Assembly (NCBI RefSeq): GCF_028583725.1
Contig: NZ_CP110680.1
Location: 2,914,001-2,978,000, forward strand
Direction of reading: 5' to 3'
DNA length: 64,000 bases
DNA from: Cellulomonas fimi
Lineage (GTDB): Bacteria > Actinomycetota > Actinomycetes > Actinomycetales > Cellulomonadaceae
Below the pieces are notes generated by a model, which saw only the letters and a list, made by a program, of their open reading frames with translations, was not told the origin of the DNA and ran no database searches. A program made the translations under genes and the position numbers. Positions 8,161 through 13,208 of this stretch are shown here, piece after piece; position 1 is the first letter of the stretch, and every line of letters begins with the position of its first letter.

Positions 8161-8164
<4 letters not shown>

Positions 8165-8787
8165 CCGCCCAGCACCCGCACCAGCGTCGGGGCGAGCGCG
8201 CGGAACGCCTGGCCGCGGTGGCTGATCGCGTTCTTCTCGGCCGGGTCGAGCTCGGCGCACGTGCGCTCCTCGCCGAGCGGCACGAGCACCGGGTCGTAGC
8301 CGAAGCCGTGCGTGCCGCGCGGCGCGTCGGCGAGCGTGCCGACGAGGGCTCCCGTCTCGACGTGCTCGAACCCGTCGGGCGTGACGAGCGCGGCCGCGCA
8401 CACGAACCGGGCGCCGCGGTGCTCCGCCCTGACGTCGCGCAGCTGCGCGAGCAGGAGGTCGAGGTTCGCCGCGTCGTCGCCGTGCCGGCCGGCCCAGCGG
8501 GCGGAGAAGATGCCGGGCGCGCCGCCGAGCACGTCGACCGCGAGGCCCGAGTCGTCGGCGACGGCGGGCAGGCCGGTGAACGCGGCGAGCGCGCGGGCCT
8601 TGAGCAGCGCGTTCTCGGCGAACGTGACGCCGTCCTCGACCGGCTCCGGCGCGCCTACGTCACCCGCGCCGACGACCGCGGCCGGGTCGAGGTCGGGCAG
8701 CGACGGCGTGAGGATCGCGCGGAGCTCGCCGATCTTGTGCGCGTTGTGGGTCGCGAGGACGAGCCGCGCCCCGGGGGGCACCGTCAC
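8161..8787 (-). CDS. rdgB: RdgB/HAM1 XTP/dITP diphosphatase
   Basis: 208 residues, normal length. [13 protein letters not shown] is the conserved nucleotide-binding start, [11 protein letters not shown] and [24 protein letters not shown] form the active-site core, and [12 protein letters not shown] and [12 protein letters not shown] complete the family signature. It hydrolyses dITP, XTP and ITP to monophosphates, cleaning the nucleotide pool. The GTG start at 8787 overlaps the rph stop (GTGA), the usual actinobacterial rph-rdgB pairing. Confidence 0.95.
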
Positions 8788-9575
8788 GCGTCCACCTCGG
8801 CCACGAGGCGGGTCGCGGATCCGTCGCCGGGCGCCGACGCGAGGGCCGCCTGCTGGAGTGCCGTGAGCTGCGCGCCACCGGCGACCGCGAGGTCGAGCAG
8901 CGCGTCGAGCTCGCGACGGTCGAACGGGGCGTGCTCGGCGGTGCCCTGCACCTCGACGAACGCGCCCGAGCCGGTGACGACGACGTTCATGTCCGTCTCG
9001 GCGCGCACGTCCTCGACGTACGGCAGGTCGAGCACGGGGACGCCGTCGACGATGCCGACGCTCACGGCCGCGACCGAGTCGCGCAGCACCGTGCGGCCTG
9101 CCTTGACGATCCGCTGCTCGGTCGCCCACGCGACCGCGTCGGCGAGCGCGACGTACGCGCCCGTGATGGCCGCGGTCCGGGTGCCGCCGTCGGCCTGGAG
9201 CACGTCGCAGTCGAGCACGATCGTGTTCTCGCCGAGCGCCGACACGTCGACGACGGCGCGCAGCGACCGGCCGATGAGGCGCGAGATCTCCTGCGTCCGG
9301 CCACCGACGCGGCCCTTGACCGACTCGCGGTCCGAGCGCGTGGTCGTGGCGCGCGGCAGCATCGCGTACTCCGCGGTGACCCAGCCCTCGCCCGAGCCCT
9401 TGCGCCAGCGCGGGACGCCCTCCGTGAACGACGCCACGCACAGCACCTTGGTCCCGCCGAACTCGACGAGGACGCTGCCCTCGCCGGCGTCGAGGAAGCG
9501 TCGGGTGAGCGTGACGGGGCGCAGCTCGTCGGGGCGTCGGCCGTCCGCGCGGAGCGCAGGGGTGGTGGCGGTCAT
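8784..9575 (-). CDS. rph: Ribonuclease PH
   Basis: 263 residues. [13 protein letters not shown] at the start, [14 protein letters not shown] and [20 protein letters not shown] form the phosphate- and tRNA-binding core, [20 protein letters not shown] is the PROSITE-type RNase PH signature and TDMNVVVTG follows. It is a phosphorolytic 3' exonuclease that trims tRNA 3' ends; the family forms hexamers. It is first of the rph-rdgB-ABC-F run. Just upstream lies an IS110 element that probably separates rph from murI and the MBL-fold gene, which neighbour it in many actinobacteria. Confidence 0.96.
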
Positions 9576-9669
9576 GCGGACGAGCCTAACCGCGCAGGCC
9601 GACGCGCCCGGCCGGGCGTCCGCCCCCCGCCCGCGTGCGGGCGCGCCGTCCGGACGCTCCTATGGATCG

Positions 9670-10720
9670 TCAAGCCGGTTGTGGGCCGTGTTCGAGCTGT
9701 CGAAACAGGTCGCGGGCGATGTAGCGCTTGAGGCAGCGGCGGATCTCGCGGTCGGTCTTGCCCTGCGCGCGGCGGCGTTCGATGTAGTCGCGTGTGGGCT
9801 GGTGGTAGCGGGTGCGGGACAGGGCGATGACGTGCAGGGCGCGGTTGAGCTGGCGGTCACCGGTCCGGTTGAGGCGGTGGCGGGTGCGCAGCCCGGAGGA
9901 GGCGGGGATGGGTGCGGTGCCGGCGAGCATCGCGAACGCGGCCTCGGATCGGATCCGGCCCGGGTGGGACCAGCTGGTCAGGACCTGGGCGGCGACGATC
10001 ACCCCGACGCCGGGCGCCTCGAGCAGGTCCGGGCGCCAGGCCCGCACGATCACGGCCATGGCCTGTTCGTGCCCGCGGGCCTCGGCTTGCAGCGTGATCA
10101 CGCGTCGGGCCAGGGCGCGCAGCACCGTGGCGGTCGTCGCGGTGTGGCCGTCCCAGGCGGGCCGTGCGCGCAGCCGTGCGGCGGTCGTGGTCATCGTTGC
10201 CGTCGACCGGCCGCGGAATGCCGCCCGCAGGACCTCCGGGGCGGCGACCACCAGCGCGTGCAGCTGACGTTGCGCGAGCGTGGCGGCCTCGACCGCGGAG
10301 CGACGCGCGGCCATCAACGCGGCCAGCTGGGCGCGCGGCCCGTCGGTCTTGACCTGTGCCAGGTGCTGGCGCCCCAACGCCTCCCGGGCCGCGCGGGCCG
10401 CGTCCAACGAGTCGGACTTCGCGCCATGGCGACGCGCCGCACGAGCCGGCCGGTCGAGGCTCGATGACCTGCTCACCAGCGGCGCACAGGTGGCGGGCCA
10501 GGCCAGCGCCATAGCCCCCGGCGCCTTCCAACGCCCACACCCGCGCGCCACCGTGGCCGCCAGCCCACCGCAGCAGCTGGTCGTAGCCGGCCGGGTCGGT
10601 CGCGACCGTGACCTCGGCCAACACCCCACCGGTGGTCGCGGCCACGACCGCGGCGGTGTGCGTGTGCTTGTGAGTGTCGACCCCGATGACGACGTCGACG
10701 AGTTCGGCAAGACTGGGCAT
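9670..10720 (-). pseudogene. IS110-family transposase, interrupted by a +1 frameshift
   Basis: Two overlapping frames together give a full-length protein of about 349 residues. Frame one starts at the ATG at 10720 (AAGGAG nine bases upstream) with VVIGVDTHKHTHTAAVV and VWALEGAGGYGAGLARHL. Frame two continues LDRPARAARRHGAKSDSLDAARAA, then the Tnp_20 part with GTAPIPASSGLRTRHRLNRTG containing the conserved Ser region. The D, E and DxxD residues of the RuvC-like domain are present. The switch is at an extra C near 10459 (GAG-C-CTC-GAC). IS110 elements are not known to need frameshifting, so this copy is probably dead unless the base is an error. Confidence 0.8.
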
Positions 10721-10729
10721 CGCGTTCAT

Positions 10730-10970
10730 CTCCTTGAACCGGGGGAACGTAGGTTCCGGTCCGGTCGGAGACGGCAGGACTGTGACGGGACACGCACCGC
10801 TGCAACGGTGCGGTCAAGCTCCTGATCAGGCCAGCAACTCCGGTCGGGCCGGGGCCGGCAACCACACGCGGACAAGTCCGCTCCAAGGCACGAGACCAGT
10901 CAGACGAAGGGTCACACGCGCAGTCACCGAGCCACAGCCCACCGCACCCATCAAGGCTGCGTCGAGATCC
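10730..10970 (-). ncRNA. Candidate IS110 bridge RNA region (upstream leader of the transposase)
   Basis: In the IS110 group the recombinase leader encodes a structured bridge RNA whose loops pair with target and donor DNA. This 240-base leader contains hairpins: CGCACCG/CGGTGCG (10793-10799 with 10806-10812), GCGGA/TCCGC (10868-10872 with 10877-10881) and GGAAC/GTTCC (10744-10748 with 10753-10757). It also carries CAGTCAGACGA (10897-10907), found again exactly at 10974-10984 in the flank. That match is where a left target guide might be expected. The assignment rests on position, hairpins and the match; no covariance search was possible. Confidence 0.4.
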
Positions 10971-10976
10971 TCACAG

Positions 10977-11549
10977 TCAGACGAGCGGGCCGGTGGGACC
11001 CGTCGCCGCGACCGCGGCGGCGACGCCGCGCGGCCGCACCGCCGTGTCGCCCAGCGCGACGTCGAGCACCGCCTGCTCGGGCGACGCACCGGCGGCCAGG
11101 CGCCCGCCGATCGCGTCGCGCACCCGCAGCGCGCGGCGCCAGCCCATGACGTCGGCGACCGCGACGGCGGCGGCGTCGTCGTCGCCTGCGGGCGTCACGG
11201 CGACGGCCCAGGGGCGGCGGAGCAGCAGGCGGCCGACGAACGCGAGCACGAGCACGACGACCACCACGAGGAGGTCGAGCACGACGAGCAGGAGAGGCAC
11301 GAGGAACAGCCAGACCAGCAGCACGCCGAGCACGAACGCGACCGCGCCGACGATCCACACGACGATCCCGCCGAGGTCGTCCAGGCCACCGGCGAGCTCG
11401 CCGACACCGTCGAGGGCGACGTCCGCCCCTTCCCGGTTGCGGCGGTGCGACCTGCGCAGCCGCCGGAACACGCGGGCCCACCGGGGTGCCCACTGCACGG
11501 CGACGTCGAAGGCCGGTCCGACGGGCGTGCGGACGGTACGGGTGCGCAT
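10977..11549 (-). CDS. Membrane protein of unknown function (190 aa)
   Basis: The ATG at 11549 starts MRTRTVRTPVGPAFDVAVQWAPRWARVFRRL, a basic cytoplasmic segment. A long hydrophobic block follows (IVVWIVGAVAFVLGVLLVWLFLVPLLLVVLDLLVVVVVLVLAF), likely two helices. The C-terminal soluble part ends GVAAAVAATGPTGPLV. I do not recognise the family. The stop lies inside the 11-bp sequence shared with the IS110 leader, so the last residues may have been changed by the insertion. It is read in the same direction as, and downstream of, the MBL-fold gene. Confidence 0.7.
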   Translation of the reverse strand: MRTRTVRTPVGPAFDVAVQWAPRWARVFRRLRRSHRRNREGADVALDGVGELAGGLDDLGGIVVWIVGAVAFVLGVLLVWLFLVPLLLVVLDLLVVVVVLVLAFVGRLLLRRPWAVAVTPAGDDDAAAVAVADVMGWRRALRVRDAIGGRLAAGASPEQAVLDVALGDTAVRPRGVAAAVAATGPTGPLV

Positions 11550-11607
11550 GACCGCACAGCGTGCCAGGTGCGGGCGCGTGCTGTGGGAGGTTCCCGGCGG
11601 GACCGGC

Positions 11608-12396
11608 TCAGAGGGTGTGCACGTCGCCCGGGCGGGCGAGCGCGACGGGCCCGTCGTAGACCGCCCGTGCCTCCGCGACGGCGACCTGCGGGTCGTTCCA
11701 CGCGGGAATGTGCGTGAGCACCAGCGAGGCCGCACCGCCGCGGGCCGCGGCCTCGCCCGCGCGCCGGCCGGTGAGGTGCACGCCGCGCACCGCGTCGTCA
11801 CGCCCCTCGACGAACGCGGCCTCGGCGAGCAGCAGGTCGGCCCCGTGCGCGAGCGTGTCGAGACCGGCGCACGCGTCTGTGTCCCCGGTGTAGGCGAGCG
11901 TCACGCGCCGCGACGGGTCCGCCTCGGACGGTCCCTCGACGCGGATGCCGAAGGCCGGCACCGGGTGCTCGACGGGCACGGGCGTCAGGGTCAGCGGGCC
12001 GACGACGACGGGCGCCGACGGGTCCCACGCGTGGAACGTGAACTGCCCGCCGACGTCGGTCGCCGGGTCGCCGCCCGCGATCTGCGTGAGCCGCTGCGCG
12101 GTGCCCTCGGGGCCGTGCACGTCGACGGGCGGCAGCGCTCCGTCGGGGTGGTACCGCCGCAGCACGTTGAGCACGACCATGTCCGCGACGTGGTCCGCGT
12201 GCAGGTGGGACAGGCCGATCGCGTCGAGCCGGGTCGGGTCGCCGAACCGCTGCAACGGGCCGAGCGCGCCGTTGCCGAGGTCGAGCAGGACGGTCCACGT
12301 GCGGCCGTCCGCGTCGTCGGCCTGCACGAGGTAGCCCGACGCGGCCGAGTCCGGCCCCGGGAACGACCCGGCGCACCCGACGACGACGAGCCTCAT
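11608..12396 (-). CDS. MBL-fold metal-dependent hydrolase
   Basis: 262 residues. [13 protein letters not shown] is the HxHxDH zinc-binding motif (H64, H66, D68, H69), and [30 protein letters not shown] and LVLTHIPAW supply the later His/Asp ligands. It resembles RNase Z-like and cyclic-nucleotide phosphodiesterase-like MBL proteins, but lacks a clear exosite arm, so the substrate is unknown. The ATG overlaps the murI stop (ATGA at 12393-12396), so it is coupled to murI, an arrangement common in actinobacteria, where rph usually follows. Confidence 0.85.
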
Positions 12397-13208
12397 CGCA
12401 GCGCCATCCGCGACTCGACCGACCCGACCTCCGGGCCGAGGAAGCGGCGCGCGAGCGCCTGGAACGAGTCGGGGTCGCCGGTCGCGAGGAAGCGGTGCGT
12501 CGGCGGGCCCGCCGCCGGGTCACGCTCCAGGCCGTGCGCGACGAGGGTCCGGTAGACGTCCTTCGCGGTCTCCTCCGCGCTCGACACGAGCGTCACCTCG
12601 TCGCCCATCACGTACGAGATCGCCCCGGTCAGCAGGGGGTAGTGCGTGCAGCCGAGCACGAGCGTGTCGACGCCCGCGTCCTTCACGGGCTCCAGGTACT
12701 CGCGCGCGACGGCCAGCACCTCGGGCCCCGACGTGATGCCGGCCTCGACGAGCTCGACGAACCGCGGGCACGCCTGCGTGGTGAGCGTCACGCCCGGCGC
12801 GACGGCGAACGCGTCGTCGTACGCCCGCGACTCGACGGTCGCGCGCGTCCCGATGACGCCGATCCGGCCCGTCCGCGTCGCGGCGACCGCGCGCCGGGCG
12901 GCGGGGAGGATGACCTCGACGACGGGGATGCCCCGCCGCAGCGTGTACCGCTCGCGCGCGTCCCGCAGCATCGCGGCCGACGCGGTGTTGCACGCGATGA
13001 CCAGCAGCTTCACGCCCGCGTCGACCAGGTCGTCCATGACCTCCAGCGCGTGCGCGCGCACCGCGGCGAGCGGCTTGGGGCCGTACGGCGTGTTCAGGGT
13101 GTCGCCGATGTAGAGCGTGGACTCGTGCGGCAGCTGGTCGAGGATGGACCGTGCCACCGTGAGACCGCCGACGCCGGAGTCGAAGATGCCGAGGGGGGCG
13201 TCGTTCAC
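12393..13208 (-). CDS. murI: Glutamate racemase
   Basis: 271 residues, normal length. [16 protein letters not shown] at the start, [10 protein letters not shown] with catalytic C73 and [10 protein letters not shown] with catalytic C187 are the two-Cys proton-transfer pair that interconverts L- and D-glutamate for peptidoglycan. [13 protein letters not shown] binds substrate. It is cytoplasmic and essential in most bacteria. It lies ten bases downstream of the DUF2017 gene and overlaps the MBL-fold gene by four bases, consistent with one clpS-DUF2017-murI-MBL transcript. Confidence 0.96.

Follow-up and report, generated by a model that had tools for sequence, protein, structure and literature searches.

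An IS110-group element of Cellulomonas fimi very probably recombines under the guidance of an RNA encoded in its own leader, by the mechanism proposed below. The element was studied in a 64,000-nucleotide stretch of contig NZ_CP110680.1 (positions 2,914,001 to 2,978,000), here called the window, whose numbering is used throughout. In the element and its relatives the ends were located, two guides covary with the DNA on either flank, the leader folds with covarying pairs, and bases of the RNA show crossed complementarity to target and donor. The features are listed in Table 1.

Table 1. Features of the element and its surroundings (window coordinates)
Feature	Position	Strand	Sequence or basis
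IS110-group element	9653..10975	minus	left end 10975, right end 9653; three-copy comparison and empty sites of copies B and C
Core base C	9653 and 10976		present at both element ends
Transposase (recombinase) gene	9670..10729	minus	frameshifted here; two ORFs, 9857-10729 and 9670-10710
Frameshift stretch of the window copy	10452..10468	minus	alignment of copies
Putative bridge RNA region, target-binding then donor-binding loop	10773..10975	minus	alignment of 20 leaders, consensus fold, pair counts
Left target guide (LTG)	10899..10907	minus	RNA UCGUCUGAC; flank covariation
Left target, positions 1-9, host stop codon within	10976..10984	minus	TCGTCTGAC
Right target guide (RTG)	10878..10880	minus	CGG, complementary to top-strand positions 9-11
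Right target, positions 10-11	9651..9652	minus	CG
Candidate handshake guide of target-binding loop	10876..10877	minus	AC, complementary to donor GT
Candidate handshake guide of donor-binding loop	10778..10779	minus	UC, complementary to target GA
Putative left donor guide (LDG)	10815..10823	minus	AGGAGC and partly matching bases; matches right end AGGAGC
Putative right donor guide (RDG)	10780..10785	minus	UCACAG, complementary to C+TGTGA of left end
Left donor (element right end)	9653..9661	minus	AGGAGCGTC
Right donor (element left end)	10969..10975	minus	TGTGAGG
TGA stop codon of upstream host ORF, kept intact	10977..10979	minus	ORF 10977-11801
-35-like motif, right end	9668..9673	minus	TTGACG; in the circle 18 bp before GAGGAT
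-10-like motif, left end	10967..10972	minus	GAGGAT; second and sixth bases invariant in 20/20

The element, its copies and its ends

The host genome (4.49 Mb, one contig) contains three copies of the element with 99-100% identity. The two other copies have a single open frame of 380 codons, which is absent from the window copy. Both DEDD_Tnp_IS110 and Transposase_20 were found by Pfam search in the window copy, each in a different frame, and the DEDD domain scores above cut-off within one open frame in the other two. These domains, the DEDD one being RuvC-like, confirm the IS110 identity given in a preliminary description of this DNA. With its recombinase frameshifted, the window copy would probably depend on an intact copy for any further move. 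Outside the three full copies, at G000:C1:205229-205261 (L004), a 33-bp stretch matches part of the transposase (91%).

The left junction (GAC/TGTGAGGATC) and the right junction (AGGAGCGTC/N) are identical across the three copies. The empty site of copy C reads ATGCTCGACTGACCGACCCACC in genomes G023, G055 and G037, and that of copy B reads CTGGCTCGACTGACCGGGCG in G023 and CTGGCTCGACTGACCGCGCG in G055. Filled and empty sites reconcile if a single base, C, is common to both junctions, and the ends in Table 1 were assigned because they agree with this one shared base. For the window copy five loci were inspected and none gave a clean empty site; among relatives the host gene differs at its 3' end. 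Between these ends the noncoding left part comprises 246 bases (10730-10975) and the right part 17 bases (9653-9669).

The neighbours of the element are an ORF without a Pfam match (10977-11801) and, beyond the right end, RNase PH (8784-9575). The row at 8161-13208 also holds ORFs of the Ham1 family, the beta-lactamase superfamily and the Asp/Glu racemase family.

The repeat and the leader

The window contains CAGTCAGACGA at two places and no others, 10897-10907 in the leader and 10974-10984, and two occurrences were seen in 0/100 shuffles of the window. Exact search of the window thus agrees with the 11-bp repeat of the preliminary description at both positions. The estimate made there, that a chance match of this kind would arise about once in 100, was too generous. 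Random 343-nt stretches of the window were divided into 100 nt taken as outside and 243 nt taken as inside, and in 612/5000 of them, about 1 in 8, the two parts had at least one direct 11-mer in common. The 11-bp repeat alone is therefore weak evidence, because random stretches of this GC-rich window do likewise. On the minus strand the outer repeat is made up of TCGTCTGAC (10984-10976), which is flanking DNA including the shared C, and TG (10975-10974), the start of the element. The idea that it lies beyond the end of the element therefore holds for nine bases, the shared C counted, and fails for the other two; with just 2/11 bases inside, the repeat is not enclosed by the element.

The leader had also been described as noncoding, with several hairpins, and this was borne out. 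The fold of 10733-10976 has an energy of -117.1 kcal/mol and is more stable than most shuffles (z -2.95; 2/200 shuffles equally good). In Rfam the stretch 9300-11400 matched no bridge RNA family. Its four matches, spread over three microRNA families and a single snoRNA family, all fell far short of the gathering score.

Covariation of target guides and flanking DNA

Relatives were collected by genome searches and selected by their conserved donor loop. Extraction gave 41 rows; five from viral contigs without element ends were dropped, leaving 36, own copies included. The flank pattern for this set demanded AC before TGTGAG. The left flank was compared in 32 rows (L017, L031, L114 and L128 have no usable flank) and the right flank in 33 (L016, L017 and L128 have no right flank or RTG under the patterns), L016 dropping out of the right count solely through its TTC right end, as the pattern wanted GTC-like ends. 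In a recount of 48 loci anchored on TGTGAG alone, duplicates and own copies included, GAC was found in 38 and the left end was missing in 10. The right ends in this recount were GTC in 42/47, TTC in 2, CTC in 2 and GGC in 1. The Cellulomonas avistercoris locus seems to be the same as one in G024, a genome of the same genus (L029 and L012 have identical match figures).

A protein search of viral contigs gave no relative. A pattern search of viral contigs gave seven stretches, and the five entered as rows without element ends look like coding sequence unrelated to the IS. Plasmids gave no match at E 1e-80. In a phylum-wide pattern search 2/396 genomes were positive, the window's own included.

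With each of the 17 unique guides represented by its first row, the LTG and the flank agree at 88/102 variable positions. Random re-pairings of guides and flanks agreed at 41.8 on average and at 69 at most, and 0/20000 reached 88; the relatives share ancestry, and this figure and the other permutation and shuffle figures given here are a strong indication but inexact as probabilities. Counting leftward from the constant GAC, positions -1 to -6 agree in 30, 31, 21, 28, 26 and 28 of 32 rows, and positions -7 to -9, past the edge of the LTG, in 3, 7 and 10. The edge is sharp, falling from 28/32 at the sixth base before GAC to 3/32 at the seventh.

The RTG, taken as the bases between GCCTT and GAC, agrees in reverse complement with the right flank at +1 in 32/33 rows and at +2 in 30/33. 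Farther out, at +3 to +5, agreement was seen in 12, 9 and 20 of 33. Over 18 unique guides the RTG agreement is 44/54 against 21.4 expected, with 0/20000 permutations as high. Because the matches are confined to six bases left of GAC and two right of it, the target is N6-G-A-C-N-N, or 11 bp.

Copies B and C have one mismatch to the guide in nine positions, at the third base before GAC, where 21/32 rows match. L157, L159 and L160 have an 8/9 left match. The worst row is L117, in which 2/9 compared bases left of GAC match. The Billgrantia relative L017 has no left match in register, its best being 6/9 at an implausible place.

In the preliminary description the inner repeat was taken for the left target guide, and an alignment of relatives across other sites was proposed as the check. 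The alignment was made and guide and flank were found to covary. The guide also sits in a hairpin loop and is followed by the RTG, but it is 9 nt long and not 11. Nor was the same guide found beside unrelated DNA, as the other two copies are flanked by TCGACTGAC, which matches it at 8/9 positions. The reading of this stretch as a bridge RNA guide is supported. For the recombinase and RNA of an intact copy, the predicted target would be TCGTCTGACCG, with recombination at C.

Fold of the leader RNA

The consensus fold of 20 aligned leaders has a long stem and an internal loop with the LTG on its 5' side and the RTG on its 3' side. A second internal loop contains the LDG and RDG. Over 44 pairs 97.8% of cells are paired against 33-46% in slid controls, a comparison biased towards the counted structure, since this was derived from the same alignment. 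Fourteen pairs changed on both sides compared with 5.8 in shuffles (0/500 as high). What looks like a further stem, joining the 5' end to the RDG, arises because the RDG is complementary to the left end, and it was not counted among the 44 pairs. As judged from aligned sequences, the leader of the window element appears to encode a bridge RNA with target and donor loops. In L157 about 50 left-end bases are present twice in tandem, upstream of the transposase.

Donor guides, handshake and core base

The LDG matches just 6-7/9 donor bases, and the RDG covers C+TGTGA. Divergent relatives with the left end AGTGA have an RDG for AGTGA. The right ends AGCAGC (L161), AGAAGC (L159), ACAGGGGC (L163) and ATAGGAGC (L158) each recur, by eye, in their own RNA. 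LDG and RDG change together with the element ends across divergent subclades.

In the divergent set the dinucleotide following the RDG is complementary to target positions 7-8 in 11/11 rows (GA in 6, AA in 3, AT in 2). The dinucleotide following the RTG is complementary to donor positions 7-8 in 8/8 rows whose right end could be anchored (GT in 4, AT in 3, CT in 1). For both counts loci and anchors were chosen by eye, the right end was anchored in 8/11 rows, and the independent changes are few. L156 gave no left end, L151, L152 and L154 have no left end or RNA, and L153 is the L161 insertion. When the handshake was counted by pattern in the 36 closer rows, 32/32 agreed for the target and 33/34 for the donor, L017 and L128 having no RNA match. 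The lone donor exception is L016 (same DNA as L107), whose right end is TTC and whose RNA would pair with GTC.

The compensatory changes are crossed, with GA/UC, AA/UU and AT/AU for target/RNA and GT/AC, CT/AG and AT/AU for donor/RNA. The handshake was proposed earlier from IS621 structures and covariation at position 7. Here natural elements show the crossed compensation itself, with few independent changes and one exception. The crossed changes suggest that the handshake can extend into the core.

In the window lineage positions 8-9 are AC for the target and TC for the donor; in L017 and L159 they are TC for both. A CT core dinucleotide common to target and donor, like that of IS621, is absent from the window lineage. 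With C at position 9, the core common to target and donor is in most cases a single base, C, and the handshake covers positions 7-8.

The same bridge RNA mechanism could also operate in another register, although we consider this unlikely. The shared C would then be position 8, the donor core CT and the target core C plus any base. The top strand would be cut one base earlier than in IS621, and the handshake would fall on positions 6-7, the same as in IS621 (PMC11208158). In this register the donor junction would read GT-CT-GTGAG, and a constant U follows the LTG in the 20 aligned leaders as if the RNA were writing CU. However, the base after GAC in copies B and C is T in the filled site and C in the empty site and hence is derived from the donor, whereas the IS621 cut after position 9 would leave the target's base there. 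The 38 left ends with GAC also carry T after it, although the TGTGAG anchor required this T. Furthermore, it is solely with C at position 9 that a 9-nt LTG and two bases on the right agree with the footprint of IS621. We prefer to place C at position 9.

Two readings of the repeat without a guide are far weaker. A direct repeat near the end of an element is the usual mark of a target-site duplication or of part of a terminal repeat, but such an origin is very improbable here: the inner repeat is found 68 bases in from the left end and not at the right end, the empty sites show one duplicated base (C), and all three copies of the element have the same inner repeat although their flanks differ at one base. 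A chance match beside an ordinary untranslated region, though matches of this sort are common in the GC-rich window, is scarcely credible in view of the position-specific covariation across differing guides that no permutation equalled, the sharp 9-nt edge, the second guide fitting the other flank and the covarying RNA fold.

Stop codons in the target

Insertions with a CTGAC flank sit one base after the TGA of a gene in 14/14 rows (10 distinct leaders), the coding frame being judged by open length and GC by codon position. At unoccupied TCGTCTGACC sites in the window genome the coding frame ends in TGA at 6/13 (Fisher 0.0019 against 14/14), a comparison of sets that differ in genomes and guides, in which the occupied rows are partly copies and survivors of harmful insertions alone are visible. 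The unoccupied TCGTCTGACC sites of G000 lie on one strand in 11/13 cases. When ORFs before CTGAC were sent to Pfam, 5/6 had a domain; the upstream ORF of the window is without a match.

In the ATGAC rows L018, L022 and L120 the frame before the TGA is open for 20, 3 and 161 codons, respectively, and thus the TGA of the flank is not always a stop codon. Because other lineages of the element family read TGTCGAGAC and CGGTATGAC, the reading of stop codons is a trait of one branch's guides and not of the mechanism. Genome G641 has five relative copies (L119, L123-L126) with TGTCGAGAC as both guide and flank. Similar stretches near these copies were noticed by eye, and the guide of this lineage may be directed at a dispersed repeat instead of the ends of genes. 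By reading stop codons, a guide would give a transposon an easy means of sparing its host.

Putative junction promoter and proposed mechanism

Across the circle junction TTGAC stands 18 bp before GAGNNT in 47/47 loci with a right end, duplicates included. As motif and spacing suggest, circularisation would join TTGACG to GAGGAT and create a promoter that transcribes the leader. The RNA would fold into two hairpins with internal loops. In the donor-binding loop the LDG would match the right end of the element and the RDG the left end. The recombinase would cut the top strands of target and donor after C (position 9) and exchange them. Each loop would then gain pairs with the strand that enters it, UC of the donor loop with target GA and AC of the target loop with donor GT. 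The steps of transcription, cutting and exchange are modelled here on homology with IS621.

A broader proposal can be made, which we offer tentatively and with somewhat less than even confidence. The lineage may have reduced the shared core to one base, with target and donor differing just before it. The RNA would write the crossed complements of these bases, so that pairing is gained only after exchange. In one branch the guide would have become adapted to gene 3' ends (N5-T-GA-C containing the TGA stop), so that the element lands harmlessly one base behind the coding sequence. The mechanism itself is of a known kind. Its new parts would be the one-base core with crossed bases, subject to the ambiguity of register, and the stop-codon guide, which is open to survivorship. 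Our literature search covered titles and the beginnings of abstracts of freely accessible journal papers, and among the matches listed none reported a stop-codon guide or a one-base core for IS110.

Comparison with known systems

IS900 of mycobacteria, an element of the IS110 type, prefers a certain position with respect to host genes, on the start-codon side. In contrast, the guide of the window element covers a stop codon. Two passages on IS900 in PMC8141618 give no target rule.

The seekRNAs of ISEc21 (IS110 family) and of IS1111 elements resemble the RNA proposed here, in that an RNA from a noncoding end picks a short target and can be reprogrammed (PMC11187229). In IS1111 elements the RNA usually lies downstream of the transposase gene, and subterminal inverted repeats are present (PMC11187229), whereas in the window element the RNA lies upstream, as in the IS110 type. 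An RNA of the IS1111 type is absent from the right end of the window element, which has just 17 bases.

In a recombinase sequence search against solved structures, ISCro4 (PDB 9t56) was matched at E 1e-08 and IS621 at 1.3e-06. ISCro4 is the closest solved recombinase, a distant one, compared by recombinase sequence alone.

IS621 has an 11-bp target and a junction promoter has been described for it (PMC11208160); its handshake guides make crossed pairs at positions 6-7 and its target and donor share a CT core (PMC11208158). Like IS621, the window element has a recombinase with DEDD and Transposase_20 domains and a long left end with an RNA that would form two internal loops (PMC11208160, PMC11208158). 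The 9-nt LTG, short RTG, putative donor guides, handshake pairing and junction promoter motifs are also alike. The core differs. According to the same sources, IS621 has CT in both target and donor and position 9 is an almost invariant T, whereas position 9 is C in the window lineage. Position 8 is A in the target and T in the donor in most rows, unlike IS621. Cores other than CT, with a donor that differs from the target, would widen the choice of targets for programmable recombinases.
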